The notes under the pieces are model-generated. The model worked only from the letters and a program-made list of their open reading frames with translations. It searched no databases and had not been told where the DNA came from. DNA of 64,000 nt. Source: a virus. The stretch is taken from positions 36,908 to 100,907 of IMG/VR virus record IMGVR_UViG_3300005435_000020. The stretch is one strand, 5' to 3'. The position numbers and the translations under genes were made by a program. Positions within the stretch are counted from its first letter, which is position 1, and each line of letters begins with the position of its first letter. Below, one piece after another: positions 10,696-62,331 of this stretch.

Positions 10696-10711
10696 ACAGG
10701 GAGGCATGGTC

Positions 10712-36065: not shown

Positions 36066-36096
36066 TGCGTGGCAATCCTTCTCACTGGACAAATAA

Positions 36097-37288: not shown

Positions 37289-39163
37289 TTAGACGGGGAG
37301 CCCCCGCAACTGACGGAAATGAATCTCCTCTTTCGTGTAGCGAGGAGTGTCGGTGGATTCCTTCGTAACAGCACCACGGCTCTGGACAGCAGGCTTGTCG
37401 CCGCTGTTCCGCAGCGTGATGCCAGATTTCACCTTCTCAAACTGCTCATCGACGTCGGCAATGGTGTTTGCACTCTTGCGGAGCACATTTGCTATCGCCT
37501 TGCCGAATCTCTCATCAGCCGTCTTCGCGGCGATGTGGGACTCAAGTCGGCTCTTGTGGTAGGACTGCACCAACGTGTGCAGGATGTCTCGCAGCCCTTC
37601 CGCAGCCTCCGTCTTCGCCAGTCGATTCTGCTTGCTCTCTCCAGCGTCGCCGGCATCTTCCATGTCGTCTGCCGCGTCATCCATGACGTCGCAGACCTGA
37701 CGCCACGAAACCTCTTGGCCCATCGCCGCAAGGAAACTCGCGTCATCCCAATCGTTGTCGCCAAGCTCAGCGACGAGTGCCGTCTTGATGGCGGCAAGGA
37801 AGGTCAGGAGGGAGTCTGCGTTTTCCAACACAGGCTTGAGATGGGACTCCAGCGTGGCGACGCGACTCCGGCTCTCGGCCAATGCGGATTCGGCACTGGC
37901 AAGTTTCTCCTCCGCTTCAGTCAGCTTGATGCCTAGCTCTACGACTTTTTCTGTCGTTGCCGATTCCTTTTGGGCACCTTCTGCGTTGGCCTTGCCTTCT
38001 GCGGCGGGAGTTTCGGTGGAAGCCTCAAGCGTGGTCTCCGATGGTGTGACGGCTTCTCCGACGTCGATGCCAGCCGTCTTGGCGATGCCTTGCGCCTTCT
38101 TGATCAGTGCATCCTTCTCGGCTTGCGAGAGGCCCTTGGCCTGGGGGATGCGAGATAAAGCATTCTTGATGTGTGCAGGATCAACCTTGCCGTCTTTGTC
38201 CTTGTAAGGGAATTTCCTGACGTCACCCTTCACGTAGAGGAAGGCGCTGTCGGGAAGGGCATCCTTGTAGGCGGTGGACCAGACGGCTTCGTTGACGATG
38301 GACTCGTCATCCGAGTCGTCAATGCTCTCAGGCGTGGCGGAAGTCTTCGGCGGGGCACCATCGGCATTACTATTGATGGGTGCCGTCTCGGGAGCCGGTG
38401 GCTCCTTGCCGCCAGCGGGATACTCTCGCTGGGCATTGGCCTCGTCGGGAGGAAGATTCTGCGGGTCATCAGGCTTGCCCTGCGGGGTCTTCACCGCCGT
38501 AGGCTGCGGCGTGTCCTTCTCAGGGTCCTTCGGGGTGCCGTCTTCGCTGGTGCCAGACGACTCCGCGACAACCTGATCAATAAGCTCATCAAGCTTATCT
38601 TCGGATATCTTCATGATCTTGTGTTCTATTCTGTCTATGACGCGGTTGAGGGCTTCGAGGCTGCGTATTCTCGCGTCAGCGACGGAAGGCTCAACAACAG
38701 CATCGAAGGTTACGAGTTCAAAGTCTGGCTGGATGATACTTGCGTTTTCACCCTTCCATTGGCCCCTCTCCATCGTTGCATAGCCGCGAGAAGAGATGCC
38801 GACTTCGACGCCAGCCCTAATCAGGGCTTCGAGGTCTTTGCCCCGCGAAGTCCCGAGAACCTCAGCTTCAAACAATACATCACTACCATCAATACTCAGG
38901 CTGGTAAACTTGAGTGCCAAGTCCTCAACGCGAGGTTCACGATGTGGGTGATTGACTGCACCTATTCTGTCACTTCGGCTCAATCCACCCTCTACCATCC
39001 TGGAAATCTCTCTTTCCATCGTGGCCTTGGGGTAGACCCTGCCGTTTTTATTCAACACATCGACTTGCGACGCCACACCGGCGATGGTGAGCCTGCCGGA
39101 TTGCTGCGTGGCGGTTTCGATGACGCGAAGCCGCTGATAGTTGGTTTCAACTACGAGGTCCAT
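37289..39163 (-). CDS. prohead protease fused to scaffold-like region
   Basis: A 624-residue protein. Residues 1 to about 190 match T4 gp21-like (S80-type) proteases: LNKNGRVYPKATMEREI, H72 in VNHPHRE and S124/S125 in GISSRGYA. A disordered P/D/E-rich linker follows (about 215-290). Then comes a DUF6582-like domain (DSAFLYVKGDVRKFPYKDKDG ... LSRIPQAKGLSQAEKDALIKKA), then a coiled coil (about 390-450) and a helical tail. The fusion would make protease and scaffold in one chain, cleaved during head maturation. ATG after AGGAAA. Confidence 0.8.
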   Translation of the reverse strand: MDLVVETNYQRLRVIETATQQSGRLTIAGVASQVDVLNKNGRVYPKATMEREISRMVEGGLSRSDRIGAVNHPHREPRVEDLALKFTSLSIDGSDVLFEAEVLGTSRGKDLEALIRAGVEVGISSRGYATMERGQWKGENASIIQPDFELVTFDAVVEPSVADARIRSLEALNRVIDRIEHKIMKISEDKLDELIDQVVAESSGTSEDGTPKDPEKDTPQPTAVKTPQGKPDDPQNLPPDEANAQREYPAGGKEPPAPETAPINSNADGAPPKTSATPESIDDSDDESIVNEAVWSTAYKDALPDSAFLYVKGDVRKFPYKDKDGKVDPAHIKNALSRIPQAKGLSQAEKDALIKKAQGIAKTAGIDVGEAVTPSETTLEASTETPAAEGKANAEGAQKESATTEKVVELGIKLTEAEEKLASAESALAESRSRVATLESHLKPVLENADSLLTFLAAIKTALVAELGDNDWDDASFLAAMGQEVSWRQVCDVMDDAADDMEDAGDAGESKQNRLAKTEAAEGLRDILHTLVQSYHKSRLESHIAAKTADERFGKAIANVLRKSANTIADVDEQFEKVKSGITLRNSGDKPAVQSRGAVTKESTDTPRYTKEEIHFRQLRGLPV

Positions 39164-39874: not shown

Positions 39875-42800
39875 TTACGCATAGGAAGCCCTGATATACC
39901 ATTTCGAGGTGCCGTCGCTGTAGATAGCCACGGCTTGATACTGGGAAGCCAGCACCAACGTCGCCAAGCCATCGATGGTGTCGGAGCCTGCCGCTGCGAC
40001 AACGACGCTATTGCCACTCGCGGTGTCTATTCTCTTGAATTCGTAGACCCTCCCCTTCACCACGGCGCTGGCGGCGGGGAGTGTGAAGGTGACGGAACCA
40101 GATGTCGCATCCCCGAGGAGGATGGCGTCACCCGTGGTGACCGTGTAGGAAGACGTCTTCGACGCGAGGGAGACGGCGATGCCTGCACCCGCAAACTCAC
40201 CGGCTGCCGTGACTTTGGCCTTGCCGACACCCAGTACTTGCAAGTCGAGGAGGTTGCCAGCGAATGCGGTGGGAGCATTGATGGCAAGCACAGTGCCGCT
40301 GGATGAGCCCACGAAGTGCCCACCCGTGGAGCCGTCGAAAGCGCCGCTTCCGAGGTTCAGGAGGCCATAGTTTGCCGTCGCCGTCACTGCGGTGGGGAAG
40401 ATGATCCTGTCCGTGTAGAGTGTCTGGAGTGTGGTGCCGGTGACCTGGATGTTCCCCGGAGAGGTGCTGAGATTGATGGAAGACAGCGAGAGTGTCCCGC
40501 TGATAGTCCCCGCCACCGTCAGATTGCCGGAGGCGTCTACCTTGAATTTCGAGGAACCTGCGAGTTGTGCATCTATCAGGTTGCCAGTGTACCCCGATGC
40601 CGTATTGATGGCCAACACGGTGCCATTGGCGGAACCGACAAAATGACCGGCGGAAGACCCGTCGTAGGGGGCATTCCCGAGGCTCAATAAGCCGATGGTG
40701 GTGCCATAGACGGTGGAGGATATCCTTGCCCAGATTGCGGAGGTGCTATCCTGCCATTGCTGCAAATCTGCGGTTTGCGACGCCATCCCCTTCACGACGA
40801 AGAGGGGAGACGCGACATTGTTCCGCTGGCTCAGCGTCGTGGTGGTGCCGCTGACGTCGAGGAGGGGGCCATTATTCGCGGCATTGACGATGCTAGTGCC
40901 CAAGAGTGTGGGGACCGTCACGCCACCCGTCGCGGAGACCTTGAATTTGGAGACGCCTTGCACCTGCAAATCCACGAGGTTCCCCACGTATCCCGTCGCC
41001 GTATTGATGGCGAGGTAAGTCCCACTCGCGGAGCCGACGAAGAAACCCGTGGTAGTGCCATCGAAAGCGCCATTGCCGAGGCTGAGCCTGCCGTAATTCG
41101 CAGACGCCGTGGGTGCCGTGGGGTGGAGGACCCTATCCGTGTACAGGGTCATCACCGTGGTACCCGTGACTTGCAAGTTGCCGGGGTTAGAGGAGAAGTT
41201 GATCCCCGTGAAGGAGAAGGTCCCCGTGATGGTCCCGGCAGCCGTCACATTACCGCTTGCATCCACCTTGAATTTGGAGACGCCAGCAACCTGTGCATCC
41301 GCGAGATTGCCGCCGAAACCGCTGGGTGCATTGAAGCCGACGAGGGTGCCGCTGCTGGACCCCACGAAGTGGCCTGCGGCTGCGCCATCCCAAGCGCCAC
41401 TGCCGACACTCACGGTGCCATAGTTTGCGGAAGCAGCCACGGCGGTGCCGAAGATGGTCCTATCCGTGTACAGCGTCTGGACGGTAGTGCCAGTGACCTG
41501 GAGATTGCCGGGGGACGCCGAGAAGTTGACACCCGTCACGCTGAAGGAGCCGGTGATGGTGCCAGCGACGGTGAGGTTCCCCGAAGCGTCTACCTTGAAT
41601 TTGGAGACACCCGCGACTTCCGCATTGAGCAAGTCACCCGTATAGCCGGTGGCGGGGTTGATGGCGAGGGCAGTACCCTGTGCATTCCCGACGAAGTGAC
41701 CTGCCGTCACACCATCGAAGGTGCCATTGCCGAGGTTCAGTTGCCCATAATTGGCGGAAGCCGTGATGACAGCAGGATGGATGGTCCTGTCGGTGTAGAG
41801 GGTCTGCACCGTGGTGCCGGTGACTTGCAGGTTGCCAGGATTCGACGTGAGGTTGACGCCAGCCTGCGAGAAGGTACCCGTGATGGTGCCAGCCACGATG
41901 AGGTTGCCGGAGGCATCGAGGCTTGCCTTCGACACGCCATTGACCTGTGCATCGAGGAGGTTGCCAGTGAAGCCGGTGGGCGCATTCAGCGCCTGGAGGG
42001 TGCCATTTGCGCTGCCAGCGAAGTGACCCGTGGTAGTACCATCGAATGGTGCAGACCCTGTATTGACGGTGCCATAATTCGCCGTCGCCGTGACAGCGGT
42101 GCCCTGGATGATCCTATCCGTGTACAAGGTGAGCAGCGTGGTGCCGGTGACCTGTATCGTGGAGGGGTTGGTGGAAAGGTTGATATTCGAGAGGGAGAAG
42201 CTATTGACGGCGAGGCTATTGCCGACGATGTTGCCGCCGCTGTCTACCTTGAATTTCGAGGTGCCATTGATCTGTATATTGATCAGGTCACCGCTGAATG
42301 CCGAGACAGCGTTGCCAGCCAGGAGGCTCCCATTCGCGGAGCCCACATAGTGTCCCGCCGAAGTGCCGTCGAATGGCCCGCCGCCGAGACTGAGGAGGCC
42401 ATAGTTGGCAGTGGCTGTGACGGTGTGGGGGAAGACGGTCCTATCCGTGTAGAGTGTGGCAACCGTGGTGCCGCTGATCTGGAGATTTGCGGGGGAGGCA
42501 TTGAAGTTGATGTTATTCGTCGCCAGCGTCGCAACGGAGAAGCCAGCCACCGTGAGGGTGCCGCTTCCATCGACTTTGAATTTCGAGACACCCGCAACCT
42601 GCAAATCCACGAGGTTGCCTGCGTAGGCGGCGGGGGCATTGAGGGCAATGTGGGTGCCGGATGCGCTACCGATGAAGTTGGTCCCGCCACCCGCGAAGCC
42701 GCCACTCCCTAAGTTGAGGAGGCCATTATTCGCCGTGGAAGGTGGCAGAGTCTGGGCATTGACGACGGAGCTTGTCGTGATGGCCCCTGCGCTGAGGGAG

Positions 42801-43156
42801 CCTGCCGCGACGACGTTGCCACCCGACGAGATGGAGAGCTTGCTACTCCCCGCAACCTGCACATCGAGGAGGTTCCCTGCGAAACCAGACGCAGCATTGG
42901 CGGCGATGACGGTACCGGATGAGGAGCCGACGAAATGACCAGCGGAAGAGCCGTCGAAGGCTCCGGTGCCGTGGTTGGCCTGCCCATAGTTGGCGGTGGA
43001 GGTGATAGTAACCAGCGCAATGCGCCTGTCGGCGTAGTACCTCTCCACGCTGGTGCCATTGATCTGCAAATCGCCGGGAGCAGACGGGAAGTTGACAGCC
43101 GTTGCAGTGCCGCCACTGCCCCCGCCGCCTGTGCCTGGATACCAAAGATTTGCCAC
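39875..43156 (-). CDS. long tail fibre with about 105-residue repeats
   Basis: A 1,093-residue fibre. After a Gly-rich start come about nine repeats of roughly 105 residues. The core is NPGNLQVTGTTVQTLYTDR, then ASANYGxLxLGNGxFDG, then GHFVGSASGT and GNLLDAQVAGVSKFKVDASG. One unit is altered (SGTTTTLSQRNNV ... ADLQQWQDSTS). The last 110 residues (TLPAASAVVKGRVYEFKRID, GSDTIDGLA, DGTSKWYI) form a tip domain also found in the gene at 47566. Probably a trimeric receptor-binding or side fibre. Confidence 0.8.
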   Translation of the reverse strand: MANLWYPGTGGGGSGGTATAVNFPSAPGDLQINGTSVERYYADRRIALVTITSTANYGQANHGTGAFDGSSAGHFVGSSSGTVIAANAASGFAGNLLDVQVAGSSKLSISSGGNVVAAGSLSAGAITTSSVVNAQTLPPSTANNGLLNLGSGGFAGGGTNFIGSASGTHIALNAPAAYAGNLVDLQVAGVSKFKVDGSGTLTVAGFSVATLATNNINFNASPANLQISGTTVATLYTDRTVFPHTVTATANYGLLSLGGGPFDGTSAGHYVGSANGSLLAGNAVSAFSGDLINIQINGTSKFKVDSGGNIVGNSLAVNSFSLSNINLSTNPSTIQVTGTTLLTLYTDRIIQGTAVTATANYGTVNTGSAPFDGTTTGHFAGSANGTLQALNAPTGFTGNLLDAQVNGVSKASLDASGNLIVAGTITGTFSQAGVNLTSNPGNLQVTGTTVQTLYTDRTIHPAVITASANYGQLNLGNGTFDGVTAGHFVGNAQGTALAINPATGYTGDLLNAEVAGVSKFKVDASGNLTVAGTITGSFSVTGVNFSASPGNLQVTGTTVQTLYTDRTIFGTAVAASANYGTVSVGSGAWDGAAAGHFVGSSSGTLVGFNAPSGFGGNLADAQVAGVSKFKVDASGNVTAAGTITGTFSFTGINFSSNPGNLQVTGTTVMTLYTDRVLHPTAPTASANYGRLSLGNGAFDGTTTGFFVGSASGTYLAINTATGYVGNLVDLQVQGVSKFKVSATGGVTVPTLLGTSIVNAANNGPLLDVSGTTTTLSQRNNVASPLFVVKGMASQTADLQQWQDSTSAIWARISSTVYGTTIGLLSLGNAPYDGSSAGHFVGSANGTVLAINTASGYTGNLIDAQLAGSSKFKVDASGNLTVAGTISGTLSLSSINLSTSPGNIQVTGTTLQTLYTDRIIFPTAVTATANYGLLNLGSGAFDGSTGGHFVGSSSGTVLAINAPTAFAGNLLDLQVLGVGKAKVTAAGEFAGAGIAVSLASKTSSYTVTTGDAILLGDATSGSVTFTLPAASAVVKGRVYEFKRIDTASGNSVVVAAAGSDTIDGLATLVLASQYQAVAIYSDGTSKWYIRASYA
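40250..43096 (-). repeat. tandem fibre repeats (about 315 bp units)
   Basis: DNA and protein repeats inside the long fibre gene, about nine imperfect copies with conserved YTDR, SANYG and GNLLDxQVxGxSKFKV blocks. They differ enough to be stable but could recombine. Confidence 0.8.
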
Positions 43157-43165
43157 TGATCTACC

Positions 43166-44827
43166 TTACGACATACCAACCGCAGAAGCGATTTGCACCC
43201 AGTTAGTACCGTCTACGTTGAGAAACGTGATGGAGTTCTTCTTATTCGCCGTGGTGGTGGGGGACCAGTTCTGGTGGAAGTTGGTGCCAAAACTCGTGAC
43301 CCTGCCTCCGGTGGCGTCTTGTGTGAGAATATACGTCAACTGGCAGCCTGCGTGGCCCGTCACCGGATTGGCAAGCGTAATGGCCCCCGTCAGCGTGATG
43401 CTCACGAAGCCGCCACTATAGGGATTGACGGCCACGGAAGCCGCATACGCAGGAGTCTCCGTCCCAAGTTGGTTGTTGATGATGATGGTGTTGCCACCCG
43501 CCCAGCCGCCGTTGCCATTATTGATGAAATGCAGGCTATCCGCGAAATACCCCTGGGCCTGGATGTAGTTACCGCCGGATGAGCCAGCAAACTCCACGAT
43601 TTGGTCCAGATGGCTGCCCCCGTAGGGAGGAGTACCGCCTACAAACCTATCCAAGGCGACGAAACCCGTGATGGAGTTGAAGTTGCCGTTATTGATCTTT
43701 ATGGCGGCGTGGGTCGTGGAGGTGCCATTATTGCAGCTATCAGCGTTGCACCCCGACATGACCTGATTGCTGGCACCGTCGAGGTAATAGCCCTCCATGG
43801 CGCAGTCTTGTGCATCGCAAGAAGAAAGGAAATTCGGCTGGATATTGCCAGGATTGATGTGCCAGCCCCACCCCGACGCGGAGACGGAGCCGGTGAGGTT
43901 CCCCGCCAGGTTCCCCTTGCAGTTGACGAAGTGGTTATTGCCGCCGAGTATCGCCCAGCACTCCAGTTGGCACTGTGTGACGTCGCAGTTGACGAAGTAG
44001 TTGTCGATGGTGCAGACAATGCCCCTACCAACAGCGGAATACACGAAAATATCGCTGAAGACGTTGGTGGACTCCGAGGTAAGCTGGAGACCATCACCCG
44101 CCGTGTCCCTCACATAAATATTATGGATGGACTGCCTGGCTTCGGCGGATTCGTCGGTATTCACCAAGTCAACGCCGGAGAACACTGTGTTCCACACCAC
44201 TCCATGGCAGGCAGTAGGCGTCGTGCCCTGGCAGACTCGGTTTCCCTGTATGGTGATGTTCTCAAGGCCAAGCTGCCTGGCGTGGCTGTCCCCCTGGATC
44301 ATGGCTGCGCCGATGTCTGGCGCTGCACACAAGATGACGTGTTTACCGGCACCCTTGATGGTGGTGTGGTGGTACTGCGTCAGTGTGCTGCTGATAATCG
44401 TGGAAGCGGGGATGAACACCACGGCACCGTCTTCTTGCGCCGTCGTCTTCGCCGCCGTGTGGGCAGCCGTCAGTGCAGCCTGTATCGCCGCCGTGTCGTC
44501 GGTGCCCCAGAAAAGCGTGGAGATGTTGGGAGACGCGGGGGAGCTTGCCGTCGCGTTACCGGAGAGGGTGATCTGCGTGGCTGATTGCACAGAGGCGATG
44601 GTGACGTTTTTCACCACCACGGAATAATTCTGGAAGTTGATGATCCACGCCTTCTTGCCGACATCGGCAGACGTGAAGTTTGCGGTGGCAGACGTGACGA
44701 TGGCAGAGCCAGACGTTGCGACGGCATCCTGCACCTGTTTCAAGTCGCATTTTGCGCCGAATCGTGTCACATCGAGGTATTGTTGTGACCAGGGAGATGC
44801 TGGGAAGACAACCTTCTGGAGGGCCAT
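43166..44827 (-). CDS. pectate-lyase-like beta-helix tailspike
   Basis: A 553-residue right-handed beta-helix protein. DDTAAIQAALTAAHTAA and GAVVFIPASTIISSTL are typical N-terminal tailspike signatures. Repeated N/G-rich rungs follow (LENITIQGNRVCQ, NCKGNLAGNLTG, GCNADSCNNG). The C-terminal 100 residues (NPVTGHAGCQLTYILTQDATGG ... NWVQIASA) form a tip domain like those on other phage fibres. It would bind or cut host polysaccharide. Confidence 0.8.
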   Translation of the reverse strand: MALQKVVFPASPWSQQYLDVTRFGAKCDLKQVQDAVATSGSAIVTSATANFTSADVGKKAWIINFQNYSVVVKNVTIASVQSATQITLSGNATASSPASPNISTLFWGTDDTAAIQAALTAAHTAAKTTAQEDGAVVFIPASTIISSTLTQYHHTTIKGAGKHVILCAAPDIGAAMIQGDSHARQLGLENITIQGNRVCQGTTPTACHGVVWNTVFSGVDLVNTDESAEARQSIHNIYVRDTAGDGLQLTSESTNVFSDIFVYSAVGRGIVCTIDNYFVNCDVTQCQLECWAILGGNNHFVNCKGNLAGNLTGSVSASGWGWHINPGNIQPNFLSSCDAQDCAMEGYYLDGASNQVMSGCNADSCNNGTSTTHAAIKINNGNFNSITGFVALDRFVGGTPPYGGSHLDQIVEFAGSSGGNYIQAQGYFADSLHFINNGNGGWAGGNTIIINNQLGTETPAYAASVAVNPYSGGFVSITLTGAITLANPVTGHAGCQLTYILTQDATGGRVTSFGTNFHQNWSPTTTANKKNSITFLNVDGTNWVQIASAVGMS

Positions 44828-47565: not shown

Positions 47566-48024
47566 TTAGATGAGATACCAGTGGGATGAGCCGTCGCCTA
47601 TCAGCGTCATGGAATTCCATTGGCTGCTGATTACCTGAGTGGCGAGGCCATCTATCGTGTCGGTGCCAGCGGCTGCCACCGTGATGGCGTGGCTGGAAGA
47701 ATCAATCTTCTTGACGACGTATTGCTTCCCCGCCGACACTCCATTCGCCGCTGGTAGCGTGACGGTGAAGGCTGCGGAGGTGCCGTCACACACAACCACG
47801 GCATCGGAGGCTGTGATGGTGTAGGCTGCCGTCTTCGATGCGAAGGCGACGGCGAGACCCGACGTGACCAGCCCATTCCCCGTGATGGTCAACTTATGGC
47901 CACTCGCTGGCGCTGCCGTCATCTCCCCCGTATTATCGATGAGGAAAGAAGCACCGGCATTGCTGAGGTACCCGCCTGTGACGGTTCCCTGGCTGCCTGA
48001 TATCGTGAGGGAGGACATGGGCAA
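47566..48024 (-). CDS. short fibre protein with shared tip domain
   Basis: A 152-residue protein. A short N-terminal beta part (LTISGSQGTVTGGYLSNAG) is followed by a tip domain: TVTLPAANGVSAGKQYVVKKID, GTDTIDGLATQV, GDGSSHWYL. That domain closely matches the end of the long fibre at 39875. It seems to be a truncated or duplicated fibre tip. Confidence 0.7.
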   Translation of the reverse strand: MPMSSLTISGSQGTVTGGYLSNAGASFLIDNTGEMTAAPASGHKLTITGNGLVTSGLAVAFASKTAAYTITASDAVVVCDGTSAAFTVTLPAANGVSAGKQYVVKKIDSSSHAITVAAAGTDTIDGLATQVISSQWNSMTLIGDGSSHWYLI

Positions 48025-48429: not shown

Positions 48430-50175
48430 TTAGAGTGTTCCCATCGCAAACCAAGTGCAAGCTATGCTAGTGCCAGCGCCGCTTCCATAGGTGGTGGACC
48501 TATACAACGTGAATGACGACGTGGAAGGCGACTGTGCATAGAAGCTGATGTTGCCGGTGATTCCGCCGTTGGGGGACACGGCAACGTTGGGTGTGCCGGA
48601 AAATGCCGTGGGGAAACCGACACTGATGCTTGTCGCATCTGCGGCGATACCAGATGACACGCCAGACTGGATGGCATAGTTGTTCCCGACGGGTGTCCTC
48701 AGCACATATTGACCATTGGCCTTGACGTTGCCGCCGTTGGAGATGGAAAATCGGGAGATACCAGCCGTGAAAAAGTCGAGGCCATTCTGGTTGCCGCCAG
48801 TCCTGTTGGAGCCGATGCCCTCGCCGGAGCCTGATGCCCCGAAGGAAATGGTCAGGCCACCGCCATTGAGGTTCTGTGTGTCGAGGAGTAGCTCACTCCT
48901 CGTCAAATAGGCACCCATCGTGGCACCGAAGTACCATTTGTGCATCCCACCCGTGGCGTCACCAGTGCTATACCACAGTGTGGAGCCATCCACCCCGATG
49001 GTATAAGAGTTTGCATCTGTTCCCGTGTCGTAGAAGATGAGTTTGGTGCCGGCACTGTAGCCTGTGCCGCTGGGGGGAGCCGCCGTCTGGTTGAATATAA
49101 TATGATTGTTGAGCCTAACGACGGAGCTTTTATCGAATCCCAAATAGATGGAGCCTGTGCCGGATGGATTGATAATAAGATTGGTTCCGTCGCTGCGTAT
49201 CCATGGCCTTCCTGGGTCGGTGGAGCTATTTTGGTTGTTGATGATGATGCCGTTTGCACCACCCAGATAAATAGCATTCCCCGTGTCGTAGGCGAGGGCC
49301 ACATAGTTGCCTGTCTTCGGGTTGAGGAAGACGCTGCCGCCATCACTCCTGAGCCACGGCATGCCAGGATCAACGTTGCTATTGTCGCTGCGTATCTGGA
49401 AGCCGAAGCTGCCATTGACGACGGAGAAGGTGTTGATGACGTTGACGCCGCCAGCAGACTTGTAGGTGACTTGCGGGTGCCAGTTGGTGCCATCATCGAA
49501 GCCAAACACCACGTCGTCGCTATTCGCTGCCCTGAGCCATCCTGCGGCTTGCGAGACGCCATTCCCTAGCTTGATGCCCTCCACATTCGCCGTATTGCTG
49601 ATGCGGTTTGCGGAGAGTTGGGCATTGGATAGTCGCATCGTGGTGCCGACGTTGGCTTGTGCCGTCACCACACCCGCTGCCGTCATGGACAGGAGGGAGC
49701 TTCCGTCTCCGTAGACTGCGAAGGTCTGGGCACCCGTGATGGTGAGGCTGAAGGCACCCGTGAAGGTGATCCCGCCGCTGCCGGTAAGCTGCCCCGCGTG
49801 ATTGATGCTCAGGAGGGGATTGCCGCTTTCATCCTGCCACTGCTGGATGTCGGAGGCATTGGAGACGTTGCGCTTCACGCTGAAGCCGATGCCGCTGCTC
49901 CCCTGCACCACCTGGCTGCTAGAGAAGCTGAGGGCACCCGTGGAGGAGAAATTCCCCGCCTGGTCGAAATAGGCAACCCTCGTATTCGAGGAGTTGTAGA
50001 TTTCTAGGAGGTTGCCAGTCTGCCCCGTGGCAGTGTGTAGCTCCAGCGTCGCAGTAGACGCGGAGGGGGCACCCGTGATGACAAGGCGCTTCTGAAACGT
50101 CTGTGTGCCCAGCCAAGTCCTGTCACCCGCAAGAGTGAGTGGGATACTGAGGAGAGCACCGCCGCCTCCACGCAT
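48430..50175 (-). CDS. tail fibre protein
   Basis: A 581-residue fibre. It opens SIPLTLAGDRTWLGTQTFQ and has fibre repeats like those of the long fibre (TGNLLEIYNSSNTRVAYFDQAGN, SDIQQWQDESGNPLLSI), then WLRAANSDD, WLRSDGG and WIRSDGT segments. The end (TPNVAVSPNGGITGNISFYAQSP ... STTYGSGAGTSIACTWFAMG) resembles an H-type-lectin-like tip. Likely a receptor-binding fibre. Confidence 0.75.
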   Translation of the reverse strand: MRGGGGALLSIPLTLAGDRTWLGTQTFQKRLVITGAPSASTATLELHTATGQTGNLLEIYNSSNTRVAYFDQAGNFSSTGALSFSSSQVVQGSSGIGFSVKRNVSNASDIQQWQDESGNPLLSINHAGQLTGSGGITFTGAFSLTITGAQTFAVYGDGSSLLSMTAAGVVTAQANVGTTMRLSNAQLSANRISNTANVEGIKLGNGVSQAAGWLRAANSDDVVFGFDDGTNWHPQVTYKSAGGVNVINTFSVVNGSFGFQIRSDNSNVDPGMPWLRSDGGSVFLNPKTGNYVALAYDTGNAIYLGGANGIIINNQNSSTDPGRPWIRSDGTNLIINPSGTGSIYLGFDKSSVVRLNNHIIFNQTAAPPSGTGYSAGTKLIFYDTGTDANSYTIGVDGSTLWYSTGDATGGMHKWYFGATMGAYLTRSELLLDTQNLNGGGLTISFGASGSGEGIGSNRTGGNQNGLDFFTAGISRFSISNGGNVKANGQYVLRTPVGNNYAIQSGVSSGIAADATSISVGFPTAFSGTPNVAVSPNGGITGNISFYAQSPSTSSFTLYRSTTYGSGAGTSIACTWFAMGTL

Positions 50176-50494: not shown

Positions 50495-51175
50495 TTAGGA
50501 GGGATTTATCGGTGTCTGCTGCAACGTAAATGTGGTAGCCGTCACGAGACTGAGGTACCACACGGGTTGGGCACCATTCTGGTCAATCGTCGTGAAGAAG
50601 TAGTAGCCAGGGTTGAGGGCAACCTGGAAGCTGCCGGTGCTCGACGTCAGTGCCTCCGCAATCTGCGAAGAGAAATCTATCTGCGTCGTCTTATTACTGT
50701 TGCCGCTGTCGATGATGGTGGTGGCATTATAGAAACGCAGCGTCGCGTTGGTGACGGGAGTTGAGCCCTCCATCAGGGTGTCGGTGAAGATGATCTGTCC
50801 TGCGCCTGGGCCTAGCGTCACCGGCTGCCCCTCGTTGGCGAGGTTCATGAGCCGCGTCGAAAGCTCCACGTCGTTGTTGTTGCCTACCAACACCTCATAG
50901 AAGAAGTGGGCCGGTATCGTCGTCTCGTCCACCTTGACGGAGTACTGACCAACCACGCTGGGCGTCCAGGAATATGCGTAAATACCGGCAGGCGTCGCGG
51001 CATCAAGCTCCGTCATACTGGCGAGGTTGACAATCTTCGTGAGACTGATGGTACTACCCGCGATGACTTCCTGGTAGATGGTTACTTTCGGGGTTTTCCC
51101 CGTGGCGGGATTGCCACTCCCATCCAGAATCTCCTGGACTATGAAGAAAGGGACGTTGACTTTGGCATCAATCAC
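50495..51175 (-). CDS. Ig-like/carboxypeptidase-regulatory-like adhesin
   Basis: A 226-residue beta-rich protein: PAGIYAYSWTPSVVGQYSVKVD (Ig-like), TRLMNLANEGQPVTLG, then VTNATLRFYNATTII and STGSFQVALNPGYYFF (carboxypeptidase-regulatory-like). It parallels the gene at 39183-39827 in order of domains, so the adhesin block seems to hold duplicated modules. Confidence 0.6.
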   Translation of the reverse strand: MIDAKVNVPFFIVQEILDGSGNPATGKTPKVTIYQEVIAGSTISLTKIVNLASMTELDAATPAGIYAYSWTPSVVGQYSVKVDETTIPAHFFYEVLVGNNNDVELSTRLMNLANEGQPVTLGPGAGQIIFTDTLMEGSTPVTNATLRFYNATTIIDSGNSNKTTQIDFSSQIAEALTSSTGSFQVALNPGYYFFTTIDQNGAQPVWYLSLVTATTFTLQQTPINPS

Positions 51176-51219: not shown

Positions 51220-51504
51220 TTAGGGAAAAACGCTTGGCCTGACATCGAATTGGGCCTCTTGCGCCGCCGTGGCGACGCCTGTGCCTTCGACGCGATACCA
51301 CCACACGCCACACGTCGCAACGAGGATATCGACGTGATAGTTGCCGGTGGAATCTTTGATAACGGCAGCACCCGAAGATGTGGTGATATTTCCCAGCGGG
51401 TCCATGACCTTGAAGATCACCGTCGAAGGGTCTTGAGGCGCATTGTTCACGTCGAAGACGGCACTGAGCCTCACCTCGGTGCCCTTCGTATAGCTATTGT
51501 TCAT
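51220..51504 (-). CDS. single Ig-like domain protein
   Basis: A 94-residue protein that looks like one Ig-like domain (KGTEVRLSAVFDVNNAPQDPSTVIFKVMDP ... GNYHVDILVATCGVWWYRVEGTG). It probably decorates the virion or links fibre modules. Confidence 0.6.
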   Translation of the reverse strand: MNNSYTKGTEVRLSAVFDVNNAPQDPSTVIFKVMDPLGNITTSSGAAVIKDSTGNYHVDILVATCGVWWYRVEGTGVATAAQEAQFDVRPSVFP

Positions 51505-51511
51505 CGGTTAC

Positions 51512-53071
51512 CTAGGGATTTGTGTCACTCTCCAGGACTGTCGAGAGTGGTGTGTCGGAAAGTGACACCGAAGTAATGGTCATGTCGTTGAGTGCAGCCG
51601 TCGCTAGCGCAGCATCATTGACGGAGACGTGTGCCGGGAGGACACTGAAACTGAGGAGTACCGTGGCCCCGGCGGAAGCAGTGGATGTCTTCTTGAGGAG
51701 GACAATGCCGCCAGCACTCGGCGCTAGTCGGTTCAGGAAGACGCAAGCCCCCGCAGATGCTTGCCCTTGTCGTGACAAGAGGGTGCTTGCGGGTGAGACT
51801 AGGCTTCCAATACGTTTCAGGAGAAGGTGTGCCGGTGCCACGCCTTGCGCCTGGGCCTGCAACACTACAGCACTACTAGCGGCAAGTGGCCTCGTGGAGG
51901 CGAGGAGTGCCGATGCCGGAGCCTGAGTCGCTGCGACTTTCGACAGGAGCACCACGGAACCAGCCGACACACCACCTTGTCTGCGTAGGAGAGTGGTGGC
52001 GCTGGCCTGATCAGCGGAGGCGCTGAGGAGCACCACGGAGCCGGGTGCCGACGCTGCGTGGCTTTGTCCTAGAAGCACCGAGGCGGGAGCCGCTTTCGAC
52101 GTCTTCAGCGTCAGGATTGCCGTTGACGTCGATGTGGCGGGGAATGTTCCCTTCAAGAGTGCCGTCGCAGGGCCTTGCTGCGGGATTCCCGTGTTCTTGA
52201 GCAGGACATGGCCAGCCGCAGATGCCTGATAGCTCCCCGAGAGGAGCACCGATGCCGGTGCCGATGTGGACCTTGTGATGCCGAGTAAGGCGTGTGACGA
52301 GGCAGCAAGGCTCCCAGCCTTCTTCAGGAGTGTGTGGGAGGCTGCCTGGTCAGAGAATGTGCCCTTCAGGAGAGTAGACGCGGGAGCCGGAGACGCTATC
52401 GCCTTGACGAGTAAGACGGAGGCGGGAGCTACGCCAGTCCTGGTGCCAGCCAGCAAGACATGGGAAGGGGCCGACACGCTATGCGACGCGATGAGGACTG
52501 CGTGTGCCTGTGCGGAATCCGCATTGACCTTCGAGAGGATGGTGTGGGCACCGGCAGAGTCACTCCCTGCCTTTGCCAAGAGGGTGTGGGAAGGCGCAAC
52601 GACAGTCCCAGACTTTGCGAGGACCACACACGAAGCTGCGCTGCTGGTCCCTGTCCTCTTGAGGATTGCCTGGGAAGGAGACGACGCAGAGAAAGTGCCC
52701 TTGAGGAGGGTGTGGGCAGGGGCTATCCCGGTCCCCGACTTTGCGAGGAGCACCTGAGTAGAGGCGGTGTCGGTGCTTTGCTTCTGAAGCTGCGCCAATG
52801 CAGACGCGAGGCTGGTCCCCGTCTTCGTCAGAAGCGTGTGGGCAGGTGCGGTATCGGTGAAGCTGCCCTTGAGTAGGGCAGACGCGGGGGCGATGTCGGA
52901 GCCGCTTTTGGCGAGGAGGACATGGGCTGCGGCGTTATCGGTGCCTTGTTTCTTGAGGAGGGTGTGTGCTCCCGCAGGGTCTGTGGCAGCCTTCGAGAGG
53001 AGTACCGTGGCGGCTGCTGGCGCTGTAGAGGTAGCCGCAGATGCTGCGGGTATATATCGCCAAACAGCCAC
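51512..53071 (-). CDS. repeat protein with about 33 tandem 14-residue units
   Basis: A 519-residue protein of low-complexity look but clear order. After about 16 residues it is built of roughly 33 units of 14 residues with the pattern A-P-A-H-T-L-L-x-K-x-G-T-x-x (examples APAHTLLTKTGTSL, APSHTLLAKAGSDS, AASHTLLKKAGSLA). It ends in about 45 non-repeat residues (HVSVNDAALATAALNDMTIT). It has only two cysteines in the repeat block, no catalytic motif and no signal peptide. A fibrous shaft, such as a beta-spiral or solenoid, is likely. I know no named family with this repeat. Confidence 0.7.
   Translation of the reverse strand: MAVWRYIPAASAATSTAPAAATVLLSKAATDPAGAHTLLKKQGTDNAAAHVLLAKSGSDIAPASALLKGSFTDTAPAHTLLTKTGTSLASALAQLQKQSTDTASTQVLLAKSGTGIAPAHTLLKGTFSASSPSQAILKRTGTSSAASCVVLAKSGTVVAPSHTLLAKAGSDSAGAHTILSKVNADSAQAHAVLIASHSVSAPSHVLLAGTRTGVAPASVLLVKAIASPAPASTLLKGTFSDQAASHTLLKKAGSLAASSHALLGITRSTSAPASVLLSGSYQASAAGHVLLKNTGIPQQGPATALLKGTFPATSTSTAILTLKTSKAAPASVLLGQSHAASAPGSVVLLSASADQASATTLLRRQGGVSAGSVVLLSKVAATQAPASALLASTRPLAASSAVVLQAQAQGVAPAHLLLKRIGSLVSPASTLLSRQGQASAGACVFLNRLAPSAGGIVLLKKTSTASAGATVLLSFSVLPAHVSVNDAALATAALNDMTITSVSLSDTPLSTVLESDTNP
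51640..53023 (-). repeat. 42-bp tandem repeat array within a CDS
   Basis: About 33 in-frame copies of a 14-codon unit, diverged at the DNA level, with one 15- and one 13-codon unit (near GPATALLKGTFPAT and AGACVFLNRLAPS). Divergence between copies argues for an old array under selection for the protein pattern. Confidence 0.75.
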
Positions 53072-53112: not shown

Positions 53113-53892
53113 TTAGACGCTGTGAAGATGCTGGTAGGGCCTCTCGAATCGAGACAGCAATTCGGCGCTGGACAACCTTCGTGTCCAAATACCAGCGGAG
53201 AGGATGGTGCCCTTGAATCCCGTCAGATTTTGCGTGGGATACGGGTAGGAGAGCACACAGATAGGTTGATTGACAATAAGTATCGGCTGCGCCGACCCAA
53301 ACCAGAGTGATTGTGGAGAATCCACCTGAAAGCCGTCTCGATAGAAATTGCAGTAGGCACCGTCGAAGGCCATTACGTATTCGTGAATATTGCCGTCACC
53401 CAATACGTAGGGATTGGTTGCCCCACTTGCATACATATCGGTGGTGCCAGCGTCGCTGCTATTCCAGTGTGCCTGATTATTGGTGCTATTCATCTGGAAG
53501 TTGACGCCATACGGGGAAGAGTTTGTGGAGTTATAGGGAATAGTGAGTATGGAGTTGTAACTTATGGTCGGCAACGAGTCGATAACGCAACGCACCATTA
53601 CCGTGAGTTGCTTCCACGTCCCTTTCAAGTGACCCGACATGGGCCAATATGCGGATTGCGTGTTCTTTGCTCCTCCGATGGGGCAGCGGAGCCCAGGGCC
53701 TTCTAATGACGGATAGTTGGTCTTGTAATCCCCCAACACAGGGGGAATGCCGGAAACCAGGTCTTCCATGGCCCCCGTCGTCGGCGCAACAAACCACCGA
53801 AGGTCTTGGCTGTGTGGGTGCCCCTGGTTGATGGTCACGGCATCCTGGAGTTGCTTGCCATACTGAAGGGAAAGCGTGTAGGGTCTCGGCAT
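53113..53892 (-). CDS. LamG/concanavalin A-like lectin
   Basis: A 259-residue protein ending in a LamG-like domain: KQLTVMVRCVIDSLP, HEYVMAFDGAYCNFYRDGFQVD and GFKGTILSAGIWTRRLSSAELLSRF are the usual strands and final motif. It is expected to bind carbohydrates on the host. It starts two bases after the stop of the gene at 53894. Confidence 0.75.
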   Translation of the reverse strand: MPRPYTLSLQYGKQLQDAVTINQGHPHSQDLRWFVAPTTGAMEDLVSGIPPVLGDYKTNYPSLEGPGLRCPIGGAKNTQSAYWPMSGHLKGTWKQLTVMVRCVIDSLPTISYNSILTIPYNSTNSSPYGVNFQMNSTNNQAHWNSSDAGTTDMYASGATNPYVLGDGNIHEYVMAFDGAYCNFYRDGFQVDSPQSLWFGSAQPILIVNQPICVLSYPYPTQNLTGFKGTILSAGIWTRRLSSAELLSRFERPYQHLHSV

Positions 53893-55240: not shown

Positions 55241-56002
55241 CTATTGTTCCTGATACGTAAGAACCAGATTCGGAAGCGCAATGGTCCCCGTCGTCGTCAC
55301 CGTCTGGTCCACACCAAACAAGAGACGCTGGAAAGCTCCATTTGCCGTGGCGGGAGCAGTGTTCTGCGTCGCTGCGCCAGCGACACTCGTGGTGTCGTAG
55401 TTGGCGGGGGTCGTCGTCATCGCGGCGTTATAGCCAGTGGGAACAGCGCCAGCAGTGCCGCCATTGGCGGGAGCCGCAGCACCTTGCACATACGACGAGT
55501 CGTTGGCAGTCTTCTGGAAGAGGTACATGCCACTCGGCATGCCAGACGCGATGGAAAGCTGTCGATTCGAGATGTTGGATTGGGGAGACGCGGCAGTGAC
55601 GATGCCCAAACCGACGACAATCTCTCGGGAGTAGGCGGTACCCGTAGACGTCGGGATTTGAATAGCCGTGGTGCCTGTGTTGGAATCATCGAGAGTGAGA
55701 CGGAAAGGAACCGCCACCACACCACCCGACGTGTAGGCACCGGGAGCCGCCATCGTCAGGGTAAACGTGGTCCCCGTGGCCGTCGTGACGGCGAAGGTGC
55801 CATTGACACCCGTAGCGCCGACAACACCTGAGATGGTGACATATTGGCCCGCAACCAACCCATGGTTGGAAGCTGTGGTGATGGTGGGGTTGGTGACATT
55901 CGTGACGTTGGTGATGCCGCCACCCACCGAGGTAGACAGGGGAGTGCCTACCTGGGATGCAGCAGCACCCGTATATCTGACTATCGTAGTAGTTGCAGCC
56001 AT
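55241..56002 (-). CDS. Ig-like/major virion adhesin or decoration protein
   Basis: A 253-residue Thr/Ala/Gly-rich beta protein. It has a segment typical of ubiquitin-activating-like adhesin repeats (NHGLVAGQYVTISGVVG, GTFAVTTATGTTFTL). It could be a head decoration or fibre protein. Abundant T and A codons match the neighbouring virion genes. Confidence 0.55.
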   Translation of the reverse strand: MAATTTIVRYTGAAASQVGTPLSTSVGGGITNVTNVTNPTITTASNHGLVAGQYVTISGVVGATGVNGTFAVTTATGTTFTLTMAAPGAYTSGGVVAVPFRLTLDDSNTGTTAIQIPTSTGTAYSREIVVGLGIVTAASPQSNISNRQLSIASGMPSGMYLFQKTANDSSYVQGAAAPANGGTAGAVPTGYNAAMTTTPANYDTTSVAGAATQNTAPATANGAFQRLLFGVDQTVTTTGTIALPNLVLTYQEQ

Positions 56003-57504: not shown

Positions 57505-57744
57505 TTGTATGCCGACGAAGAAGAATCCCCCCTGAGTTCTTACTGCATCTCCGTCTGCCCAGCGGTGCAGTGCCTCGATACTGATGGGCAGACCCTCCAC
57601 CTCTGTCGGATTGTGGGCTGCCCCATTCATCAGAAACTCGATAAGGACAAGAAGGGAACCATCTCTTTCGACTTCCCCGGTGACCCGCCGGAAGACGCAA
57701 GCCCACCAAGAGACTTCAGGCCAGAGGCCAGCCAGCCGCCGTGA
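57505..57744 (+). CDS. small cysteine-rich protein, opposite to late genes
   Basis: A 79-residue protein on the plus strand in an otherwise leftward region. It has YCISVCPAVQC and LCRIVGCPIHQKL, which could bind zinc, and an acidic/proline-rich tail (DFPGDPPEDASPPRDF). TTG start with AAAGGA 12 bases ahead; coding triplets use C/G-ending codons as in other genes here. It overlaps the end of the C39-like gene by 29 bases, tail to tail. An antisense frame here looks less like a protein. Confidence 0.55.
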   Translation: MYADEEESPLSSYCISVCPAVQCLDTDGQTLHLCRIVGCPIHQKLDKDKKGTISFDFPGDPPEDASPPRDFRPEASQPP

Positions 57745-58501
57745 AGACCTGACGCCTCTCCTTGGCCTCAATTTGACTCGTCTTCCCTGTGTGCCAGTGG
57801 AGGACTATCCCGTTATCCAGCGGCAAATACGCATCGGTGCCGTTGGCCCACTCCGAATAGAGTGGGGGCGTGGGATTGAGTACATCATCCTGGCCATTCT
57901 GGACCCAGTTGCGATACATACGCATCCACGCCAATCCCAGTGCCGTAGGATTCCATTTGGCCCCAAAGGTCTCGAAATAGGCGATGCCAGCCTGTAAAAC
58001 GGAGTCCACAGTTTCCTTCTTCTTGGTGATCACAATAATGTAGTTACCGAGGGCATACTGGTTGACCTGATCCCAGGTCCACTTGTTCTCAACACCCTGC
58101 CACGGGTTATTGATAATCGCAAATGGTGTGTCGGCGTCTCCTCTGATAACCGTGAAATGCCCACCCGTCAGGGTGTCAAGATTCCAGTACCTCAAATAAA
58201 TTATCGGAAAAGAGTCATTATTCGCCTGCTTCACCGAGGCGGCGACGTCTTGAGGCTGCGCTATATAACAAGGCAGCCCCTTCCGACTCAAGAAGTCGGC
58301 AAGCTGGCTCACATAGGTATAGCCCTGATAATATGCATCGCCTGTTTCAGTGGTGATGATGTCCTCCACGGAATCGTCAAGCCCATAATAACGCAGGATC
58401 ATGAGCACAGACTCGGGGCCACACGAGTTGGCCCTATTTTGGGGATCATTGTCGTCAATAGGAGATAGTTGGTCTAGCAGTGGTATATCAAGAAGTGTCA
58501 T
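57716..58501 (-). CDS. C39-like cysteine peptidase
   Basis: A 261-residue papain-fold protein. The catalytic cysteine is C27 in NSCGPESVLMIL, the histidine H115 in GGHFTVIRG, and N131/N132 in INNPW supports the third site. SQLADFLSRKGLP is a usual helix between. The C-terminal 100 residues (AYFETFGAKWNPTALGLAWM ... GNDAYLPLDN-like) are specific. It may process virion or host proteins. The ATG overlaps the neighbour's stop. It lies between portal and adhesin genes. Confidence 0.7.
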   Translation of the reverse strand: MTLLDIPLLDQLSPIDDNDPQNRANSCGPESVLMILRYYGLDDSVEDIITTETGDAYYQGYTYVSQLADFLSRKGLPCYIAQPQDVAASVKQANNDSFPIIYLRYWNLDTLTGGHFTVIRGDADTPFAIINNPWQGVENKWTWDQVNQYALGNYIIVITKKKETVDSVLQAGIAYFETFGAKWNPTALGLAWMRMYRNWVQNGQDDVLNPTPPLYSEWANGTDAYLPLDNGIVLHWHTGKTSQIEAKERRQVFTAAGWPLA

Positions 58502-59020: not shown

Positions 59021-60670
59021 TTAGTTGCTTTCTTCTGCCTGGGTTGGTGTGACGCCTGGCGGCGGGTAGGCTGCGAGTGTCACTAAGTCGTGTTGGTGCT
59101 GTTCCTTGGCCTTTGCGCCGCCTTTCTGCCCACCAGTCTTCTGCTTCGATTTGGTGGTGGCGTCTGCCGGTGTGTCGGGTGGTTCAGGTGCTTCCGGCGT
59201 GGCTCCGAGTTTGCCGAGACCTTCACCCTCGCCTTGCCCACTATTCGTCGGGAAGAGGGTGCCAAACTCCTTCAACTCAGCCAGTACCTGCTTCGCTTCG
59301 GCGTCGCTTTCCTCTTTCGACATCCCAAACTCACGCATCCTGATGGTCTGCTTCGATATGGCACCCATGGCGTTATAGTTCTGGTCCTTCATCGAGTTTC
59401 GGAATGCGCCGTCAGCGTAGCGCCAGTCTGTGTGGACGAAGGGCCTGGGGAAGATGATGTCGTAGGCGATGTTCATGTAGCCCTGCGCCAGGAGAGACCT
59501 GTCGATGATCTGACGGAGGCCCACTTCTATCTGCCGCTGCACATGCTGCGTGAATTTCGCCAAGGCGATGTCCTGAGGCGTCATATCACCCTGGCTTGCA
59601 TCCACGATGCCCACGGTGGCAGCGGGGACCCTATTGAAGAGCTTGCGGCGCAGGTAGACAACATCGGTGATGGTGCCGATGCCATTGAGTGTCGGGTCCA
59701 GCATCTGCAAGCTGTCGAGTTTGGGGTAATTCTTGCCGTCTGTGCCGGTGACGTAGCCTGTGGAGAGGAAATAGTCTTCATCAGGCTGCATCGGTGCCTG
59801 CTGCTCCGCACCCGATGCCGTCTTCTTCCTAGTAATACCTTTGATAAAGTCAGCCATCTTCTGGGTTGCGTCTTTGAGGCTCTTCCCTGTCATGTCTCGG
59901 AGCCACACAAGGCGTGGATAGGCCCTTGAAGCCCTCGCCACCACCATACCCTGCTCAAGCCAGTTGAGCTTCTTCCAGTCAAACCTAATTGTGTCAAGAA
60001 GGCTGCGTATCGAGTAGACGTGTTTCTTACTCGGGTAGAGCTTGAAGTGGACCATCTCGAAAGGCTGCCATCCCGCTATGACCTTACCTCCTGATGCCCT
60101 TTGCTGATAGGCGAGAGGATTGCCCTTGTCGTCGGTGCCTAGCTCAAAGTTGCCTTTGTTGTCCTTGCCGACAAACATATCCCTGACGATGTGGGGCTGG
60201 ATGCCACTGAGCCTGTCTTCCGAATCCCAGAGTAGCTCCACGAATTCGTCACCATACTTCAGGAGGTCCCTCGTGATGGGCCTCAACTCCTGGCGCAAAT
60301 CCGTCTCTTCCAGCATTGTCCTGACGACTTCTTTGGCCTTCGCGGGTGCAGACTTGAAGTCAATCTTGAAGCAGTCTGCCCTCAGGAGGATGTCGTCTTG
60401 GTTGGTGGGGTTCTCCTCGAAATTCAGCGCCTGGTCCACCACGGTATCGAGGATGATAGCGACGTCACCCGTGTCCATCTGGTCGAAGTCGTCGTAACGG
60501 CTGCGCCTATCCAGGGGCAAGCCGAAGGCTTCCTCCCAGCTACGCAATGTCGTGTGGGGGAAGGTGTCGCTTGCGCTGACGGCACCCTTCGTCTCCGTAT
60601 CCTGTTCTGCCTTCACGACAGCCATCTGCTGGCGAAACACTCTGCGGGAAAGTGCCTCAAAGATATTCAT
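59021..60670 (-). CDS. portal protein (T4 gp20-like)
   Basis: A 549-residue portal, the ring at the capsid vertex through which DNA is packed. RYDDFDQMDTGDVAIILDTVVDQAL, LLKYGDEFVELLWD and PRLVWLRDMTGKSLKDATQKM follow the gp20 pattern. The C-terminus is rich in A, E, P and T. It lies directly after the terminase large subunit, as expected. Confidence 0.85.
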   Translation of the reverse strand: MNIFEALSRRVFRQQMAVVKAEQDTETKGAVSASDTFPHTTLRSWEEAFGLPLDRRSRYDDFDQMDTGDVAIILDTVVDQALNFEENPTNQDDILLRADCFKIDFKSAPAKAKEVVRTMLEETDLRQELRPITRDLLKYGDEFVELLWDSEDRLSGIQPHIVRDMFVGKDNKGNFELGTDDKGNPLAYQQRASGGKVIAGWQPFEMVHFKLYPSKKHVYSIRSLLDTIRFDWKKLNWLEQGMVVARASRAYPRLVWLRDMTGKSLKDATQKMADFIKGITRKKTASGAEQQAPMQPDEDYFLSTGYVTGTDGKNYPKLDSLQMLDPTLNGIGTITDVVYLRRKLFNRVPAATVGIVDASQGDMTPQDIALAKFTQHVQRQIEVGLRQIIDRSLLAQGYMNIAYDIIFPRPFVHTDWRYADGAFRNSMKDQNYNAMGAISKQTIRMREFGMSKEESDAEAKQVLAELKEFGTLFPTNSGQGEGEGLGKLGATPEAPEPPDTPADATTKSKQKTGGQKGGAKAKEQHQHDLVTLAAYPPPGVTPTQAEESN

Positions 60671-60687: not shown

Positions 60688-62331
60688 TTATACGAGGGCA
60701 GCGGCAAGCCGCGTGATCTCGTCTTCTTCGTCATCTCCGTAGGGAGAGAAGTCGATGTTGAGTTTGTCGCTCCCGGCGACATACAAGCCGGAGGCGCTGC
60801 GCCTCACCGTGAACACCATGCCATCGGGGGATTCCAGAGTCTCGGGGGATTCCTTGAGCAGAATCTCATTGATGGCGTGGTTTGCCAACGCGAGGGACAT
60901 CACGTAGTCAGTCTGGAGCTTCTTGTCCTCCCACTCGTAGTACACAAGCTGGTCCACGAGTTTAGGGATATGCGGAAACAGCACAGACGTGTCCTGAATG
61001 GCCATCTGCAACTCGATGAGGAGGTTCTCTTTCGCGGAGCCTCCGGCGAAGTTGTAGCCTTCGGCGTCGAGGTTGTAGGGCTCCTTCTGGAGGGCCTCTA
61101 ACGGGGCATCGCCCATGCCGGTGGAGTCAACCATCACGGGGCAATTGCCATACGACATGGCGAGGTTCTTGACCATATCGTAGATATTGGTCCAGGATGT
61201 GTTGGTCAACTCTCGATACGCGACGAGTTTGTGGGGTGGACCCATCTGCAAGACGATGGCTACGGTGGAGTCATGTTTCCTCGCCAAGTCAACGCCGACA
61301 ACGTAACGGAACCTCTTACTCGATTTCTTGACTTCGACAAGCTGCTCAACGTTGACGCCATCACCTACTGTAGAGTACTCGACGGTGTAATTCATCGGTA
61401 TCGGCAGGAGATGGCCATAGTTCTGGTTGACGGTACAACGCATCACGGCTTCTGCGGGGAAAACCGTCGCCATCTCCGCGAATCTGCCGTAGATGTTCTG
61501 CTCCACCCACGTCGGGGACATCGACTTCATCATACGACGGATATAGTCTTGCGAGACGTTGGGGTTCTCGAAGACTTCGCCGCGACGCGAGAAGTAGTAA
61601 CTATCCGTCGTCTGGCCCATCTGATAGAAGCGCCAGAACCAGTTTTTGCCGTTTGGTGAGGAGATCAAGTCGATTTTCCCTGCTTGATCCGCCATACGCA
61701 TCCTCAAGACGGCATCCATGATGGACTCGCCATCTAAATCGAAGGCTGCCTCGTCGTAATTCAGGAAGTTGAAGGTCTTGCCGAGGAGGAATTTGGCCCT
61801 GTGTGCCGTGGACCTTGCCCAGATATCGGAGAGTATCCTGTCGTGACCAGATGGCGCATTGGAGATGGTGATGCAAGGGAAGGGGGCACCGATAACCTTC
61901 ACGACAAACTGCCGGAAGCGTGGTGCCATCGTGGCGAGGCGGTGTGCATCATTCCACGCTAGCATCGCCTGGTCAAGGGACATCGCCACGTTGACGGCTT
62001 TGTAGGGCCTGGGCCTACCCAACGTGTCGAAGTTATATTGGTCTGGCCTGATCTGGTAGAATGCGTGGTGGAGGAGCTTCACTCCGGCTGCGAAGCTTTT
62101 TCCCCACCTATTGGCGCAGGAGAGGGCAGCTTCTCCCGCGTCTGACTTGATAATGCCGTCGTTGGTCTTCCTATCCCACCAGTCTCTCTGTCCTTGATGA
62201 GGCTCAACATCGAGGAAATCCTCAGCGAAATTCCCGATATTGTCGTAGCCCCTCTCAAGGCACTCCGAGATGATGCGGCGGTTGATCTGATTGGCTGGCT
62301 TCTTCGCGGCAGCCTGCGCCTTGATGCTCAC
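60688..62331 (-). CDS. terL: terminase large subunit (T4 gp17-like)
   Basis: A 547-residue packaging motor. Walker A is ANRWGKS (73-79), Walker B FNFLNYDEA (D193, E194), and SSPNG (224-228) is the coupling motif. The nuclease domain has VVGVDLA (D348) and MVDSTGMGD (D402). ATPase and nuclease parts are both complete. Its ATG overlaps the end of the small subunit gene (ATGA-type). Confidence 0.92.
   Translation of the reverse strand: MSIKAQAAAKKPANQINRRIISECLERGYDNIGNFAEDFLDVEPHQGQRDWWDRKTNDGIIKSDAGEAALSCANRWGKSFAAGVKLLHHAFYQIRPDQYNFDTLGRPRPYKAVNVAMSLDQAMLAWNDAHRLATMAPRFRQFVVKVIGAPFPCITISNAPSGHDRILSDIWARSTAHRAKFLLGKTFNFLNYDEAAFDLDGESIMDAVLRMRMADQAGKIDLISSPNGKNWFWRFYQMGQTTDSYYFSRRGEVFENPNVSQDYIRRMMKSMSPTWVEQNIYGRFAEMATVFPAEAVMRCTVNQNYGHLLPIPMNYTVEYSTVGDGVNVEQLVEVKKSSKRFRYVVGVDLARKHDSTVAIVLQMGPPHKLVAYRELTNTSWTNIYDMVKNLAMSYGNCPVMVDSTGMGDAPLEALQKEPYNLDAEGYNFAGGSAKENLLIELQMAIQDTSVLFPHIPKLVDQLVYYEWEDKKLQTDYVMSLALANHAINEILLKESPETLESPDGMVFTVRRSASGLYVAGSDKLNIDFSPYGDDEEDEITRLAAALV

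Follow-up and report, generated by a model that had tools for sequence, protein, structure and literature searches.

A tandem 14-residue repeat protein encoded among the structural genes of a metagenomic phage: a candidate strand-turn fibre or decoration

Fibres built from short repeats determine the reach and the stiffness of phage adhesins and, to our knowledge, few types of them have been described structurally. In the triple beta-spiral, each repeat contributes two hydrophobic strand segments placed around a Gly/Pro turn. The adenovirus fibre shaft forms this fold with repeats of 15 residues (PMC7248032), and the YadA-type left-handed beta-roll, as seen in BpaC, is built from 14-residue layers that carry a conserved glycine (PMC9543794). 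The protein described here consists almost entirely of 14-residue units, and its gene lies in a window of 64,000 nucleotides, i.e., the whole stretch of DNA that was analysed, which is the final 64 kb of a 100,907-base IMG/VR virus record (IMGVR_UViG_3300005435_000020). Metagenomic DNA is the sole source of this phage. The relevant features are listed in Table 1.

Table 1. The repeat gene, its parts and the surrounding genes (window coordinates)
Feature	Position	Strand	Remarks
Repeat-protein CDS	51512-53071	-	519 aa, GTG start, predicted pI 10.3, 50.8 kDa
N-terminal 18 non-repeat residues	53018-53071	-	possible anchor (inferred)
Array, about 34 x 14 residues	51632-53017	-	protein residues 19-480, 462 aa
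C-terminal 39 residues	51515-51631	-	other motif (VNDAALATAALNDMTITSVSLSDTPLSTV)
Terminase	60688-62331	-	
T4-like portal	59021-60670	-	
C39-peptidase-like protein	57716-58501	-	
Protein with E1_FCCH match	55241-56002	-	
Lectin-like protein, upstream neighbour	53113-53892	-	Laminin_G_3, E 6e-4, below family cut-off
Small protein, downstream neighbour	51220-51504	-	Ig-like by eye only
Beta/Ig-like protein, downstream neighbour	50495-51175	-	by eye, without family match
Fibre-like protein	48430-50175	-	C-terminus weakly H-type lectin / gp53-like
Pectin-lyase-like (beta-helix-like) protein	43166-44827	-	
Repetitive fibre-like protein	39875-43156	-	
S77 prohead protease	37289-39163	-	
Gp23-type capsid protein	36182-37246	-	

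The GTG start of the open reading frame at 51512-53071 (-) is preceded by an in-frame TAG, and the other five frames of this interval contain 7 to 22 stops. When the units were compared with each other, identity at codon positions 1, 2 and 3 was 0.44, 0.54 and 0.31, versus 0.28, 0.31 and 0.29 expected from composition, and the fourfold silent sites agreed at 0.29, versus 0.28 expected from codon use. Conservation of the first two codon positions, with silent sites near saturation, indicates that this frame is a real gene; likewise, the maintenance of the residue pattern at this degree of silent divergence reveals that the units are old copies under purifying selection. The array is real, old and held by selection, and its reading frame is fixed. 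Tandem Repeats Finder detected no DNA array at the site of the gene.

The first-pass annotation of this DNA had described about 33 tandem units of 14 residues over about 460 residues, and the recount agrees, with about 34 units in the 462 residues from 19 to 480. These correspond to 32 units placed from residue 19 onward by a segmentation script, plus a divergent unit (314-327) and a unit of 13 residues (440-452); the script's final placement, at residue 487, fits badly and is perhaps not a unit. Besides the 13-residue unit, the array is interrupted only by one extra Gln at position 299. The consensus of the unit is A-[PAGS]-[AS]-[HS]-[TVA]-L-L-x-[KG]-x-[GF]-[TS]-x-x, with A1, L6 and L7 as the conserved positions. 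Self-identity at lag 14 was 0.31 versus 0.11 expected (z 13), and lags of 14, 28, 42 and 56 gave 0.29-0.34 (z 11-16, expected 0.11). Identity between units is highest when they are four units apart, i.e., 56 residues, and this maximum may be the trace of an old multi-unit duplication. In the 100.9-kb contig the repeat protein is the only strongly periodic protein, antisense frame of the same gene aside. By eye, a shorter and different repetitive motif, LNDMTITSVSLSDTPLSTV, is observed in its 39 C-terminal residues.

With respect to the fold of the array, a coiled-coil (heptad) fibre is disfavoured, given that no self-identity signal appears at lag 7 and that 15 of the 32 units carry a proline at position 2. 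AlphaFold produced all-beta models without helices, both for the full protein alone (mean pLDDT 41) and for eight units, where the input alignment comprised three blocks of that protein (mean pLDDT 51); the pTM values were 0.34-0.37, and in both models nearly every unit contains one strand, at positions 3-10. At this low confidence no topology can be assigned to the models, and the predicted strands may merely mirror the V/T/L content of the protein. The regular beta structure proposed initially is therefore retained in part: the prolines at position 2 and the low-confidence AlphaFold strands favour a beta rather than a helical character, and no particular fold emerged from the models.

The very low confidence of AlphaFold would also be expected if the array were a mostly unfolded, extended chain that displays about 34 docking motifs ([HS][TVA]LLxK) for many copies of a partner, e.g., the lectin-like or Ig-like neighbours or the capsid. 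This is the main rival to a strand-turn fibre, and other traits of the array are in line with it, i.e., its richness in Ala, Ser and Thr, the frequent Pro2, and the fact that only about half of the positions of the unit, centred on LL, are well conserved. However, the exact spacing of 14 residues has been kept almost without insertions, which would be needless for linkers, and the repeat protein is hydrophobic overall (GRAVY +0.40) with few charges, unlike typical disordered chains. The composition argues against plain disorder and, together with the exact spacing, makes a docking chain less likely; we regard it as an unlikely explanation, and a disordered repeat protein would be a minor finding.

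Two more specific proposals of the first-pass annotation found no support. The triple beta-spiral is disfavoured by a period of 14 instead of 15 residues and by the hydropathy of the unit, in which positions 5-7 form a single strongly hydrophobic segment and positions 8-14 are near zero or negative. The stacking of histidines as a metal ladder along a fibre was also suggested, but His occupies position 4 in just 12 of the 32 units (Ser in 8), and the longest run comprises four consecutive units (those at 159-201); with such a patchy distribution a continuous metal-binding ladder is unlikely, and single metal sites at His4 are possible.

The YadA-type beta-roll is not supported either. The glycine conserved in each YadA_head layer (G@8) is absent from the units, whose best Gly column is position 11 (12 of 32 units), Pfam gave no YadA_head match in the protein, and in hhalign the array aligned to YadA_head repeats taken from a bacterial genome with a profile score of 2.9, a value reached by 92% of the permuted controls, versus 74.6 for the two halves of the array used as a positive control. 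These results also bear on the idea that the protein forms a trimeric fibre with one of the known 14- or 15-residue folds, i.e., triple beta-spiral or YadA-type beta-roll, whose sequence has drifted past recognition. The similar length of the unit (14 residues in the YadA-type layers; PMC9543794) and the fibre-like setting speak for such a drift. A Foldseek search with the eight-unit model yielded no match at E below 0.001 (best E 0.013 among viral proteins, 0.75 in the PDB), and the weak PDB rows, mostly beta-solenoid proteins, are a hint at most in the same direction. Nevertheless, the beta-spiral repeats have 15 residues (PMC7248032) and the YadA-type glycine and profile are missing, hence we consider a drifted known fold improbable.

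The initial failure to match the unit to a known family was borne out by the searches: comparison with Pfam, PHROGs, NCBIfam and PDB sequences gave only weak matches at chance level, tblastn against phages gave none, although the BLAST low-complexity filter may mask part of the protein, and a single-protein scan of IMG/VR revealed no relative. A profile search in 398 genomes returned four matches, one of them the antisense of a YadA-like array and the rest unconvincing, and in the literature no description of the 14-residue repeat was found with queries that were partly narrow. As no relative is known, there is no conservation across phages on which to draw for this protein. The portal and the major capsid protein were likewise scanned against IMG/VR, with no close relative detected; in annotated phages the portal has distant relatives, with 22-26% identity among the matches listed.

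Scans with a DNA pattern of the unit were also carried out. The three-unit pattern detected 85 stretches in IMG/VR, mostly 7-residue-periodic or stop-containing frames, and the most convincing of the remaining ones, L066, was picked by eye. A stricter four-unit pattern left four stretches: three contigs share a short Ala/Val-rich frame, and the fourth stretch, L216, has units rich in Thr and Asn; in bacterial genomes the four-unit pattern gave nothing resembling the unit among the matches listed. L216 reached a high profile score, but the test is unfair, since L216 had been selected by the unit pattern of the repeat protein itself.

The contig L066 encodes an FN3-like domain followed by units of the SADRALAYTVLG type (also given as SADRALAYTVLGSA), in a gene directly upstream of those for a ClpP protease and the capsid. 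When the L066 protein was used in tblastn, arrays were found in two huge uncultured phages and in the Aeromonas phages BUCT552 and AVP3, whose putative tail protein carries C-terminal units of the PYNLRSTVQAELLx / PYGLQPGVIADLTx type. A scan of the L066 type uncovered another IMG/VR contig, L226, with about 30 SDLDLRYAIRxxVS units; this array (L226:10932-12860, -) ends in IKVWNGTAW-type motifs and precedes a 174-aa gene, followed by tail and tape-measure genes. Arrays of 14 residues occur, then, in the structural modules of several phages. The 14-residue array of the two huge uncultured phages, L090 and L091 (YSEYLAENLDKNIx), lies within a large protein and has a sequence unlike that of the repeat protein.

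Kinship between these arrays and the repeat protein found no support: profile comparison of the repeat protein with L066, BUCT552, AVP3 and L226 was no better than permuted controls, and its hydropathy profile is uncorrelated with those of L066 or L226, which resemble one another in hydropathy. Judging from these comparisons, L066 and L226 share with the repeat protein only the period and the setting, a coincidence that gives no evidence of kinship and yet merits pursuit. It could be envisaged that the array forms a fibre, either a beta-solenoid or a sheet, with an undescribed topology, and that sequence-unrelated arrays of period 14 recur convergently as head or tail fibres of phages; we see this as rather unlikely. 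If several unrelated 14-residue arrays were to share one backbone layout, they would hint at a common principle by which phages design repetitive proteins.

The genomic setting gives further clues. The repeat gene is located in the interval between the portal and the protease, on the same strand as the lectin-like, fibre-like and pectin-lyase-like genes, and it is separated by 41 bases from the lectin-like gene and by 7 from the next gene, all on the minus strand. The lectin context pointed out initially was thus recovered, with lectin-like and fibre-like neighbours, and the Ig-like neighbours were recognised by eye only. Given the lectin-like, fibre-like, pectin-lyase-like and Ig-looking neighbours, the repeat gene belongs to a module of surface proteins. 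A protein that is not part of the virion, e.g., a cytoplasmic protein or one that modifies the host surface, could have come to lie in the structural module by chance, and the repeat protein indeed matches no virion family; nevertheless, its gene is tightly packed with structural genes of the same strand, and we hold this possibility to be quite unlikely.

Other features of the window can be mentioned. The fibre-like proteins encoded at 39875-43156 and 47566-48024 (-) resemble each other, by eye, over a C-terminal segment (TITASDAVVVCDGTSAAFTVTLPAA / TVTTGDAILLGDATSGSVTFTLPAA). Two glycosyltransferase-like ORFs (34030-34989 and 34821-36092, -) lie immediately downstream of the capsid gene, ahead of the tail genes. 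The product of 10706-12367 (+) shows an integrase match (PHROG 95) and a weaker DNA-invertase match; as the portal, protease and capsid genes are of the T4 type, the phage may combine a T4-like head with a temperate lifestyle.

From the repeat, its selection and its setting we infer an elongated protein of the virion surface, i.e., the shaft of a tail or head fibre, or a decoration, made of strand-turn units and serving adhesion, a proposal to which we give an even chance. The regular period, the selection acting on the units, the AlphaFold strands, the gene setting and the arrays of other phages count in its favour; the low confidence of AlphaFold, the lack of relatives and the fact that the other arrays are alike in period only count against it. 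In each unit, positions 3-10 would make a beta-strand of about 7-8 residues, with a turn of polar character (Gly/Thr/Asp) after it; the stacking of about 34 units would produce a regular beta-structure. The odd positions of the strand, A1, A/S3, V/T/A5 and L7, could pack together as one face; Leu6 would provide another, against which a partner sheet or sister chain could lie. Exposed Lys/Arg residues at positions 8-9 would create a basic surface, in keeping with the predicted pI, suited to anionic polymers of the cell surface. The array could then act as a stiff spacer or shaft that carries or spaces the lectin-like and Ig-like proteins encoded alongside. A repeat for which the searched collections contain no relative, and which has been under selection unit by unit, offers a clean test of whether phages invent new fibre folds.

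In comparison with known systems, the triple beta-spiral shares with the repeat protein the short tandem repeats and the setting of a virus attachment fibre, and the YadA-type beta-roll shares 14-residue layers rich in small residues. The arrays of BUCT552 and AVP3 coincide with it in a period of 14, in having >10 units and in belonging to a phage structural protein, and differ from it in that profile similarity is absent. L066 and L226 are also alike in the period, in their location in a phage structural module and in their beta-looking units; in both, the array is fused to a different N-terminal part, which is FN3-like in L066 and, by eye, beta-sandwich-looking in L226. The best reading of these comparisons is that the sequence of the repeat is new, with no relative found, and that the strand-turn fibre or decoration it would form is of a known general kind.
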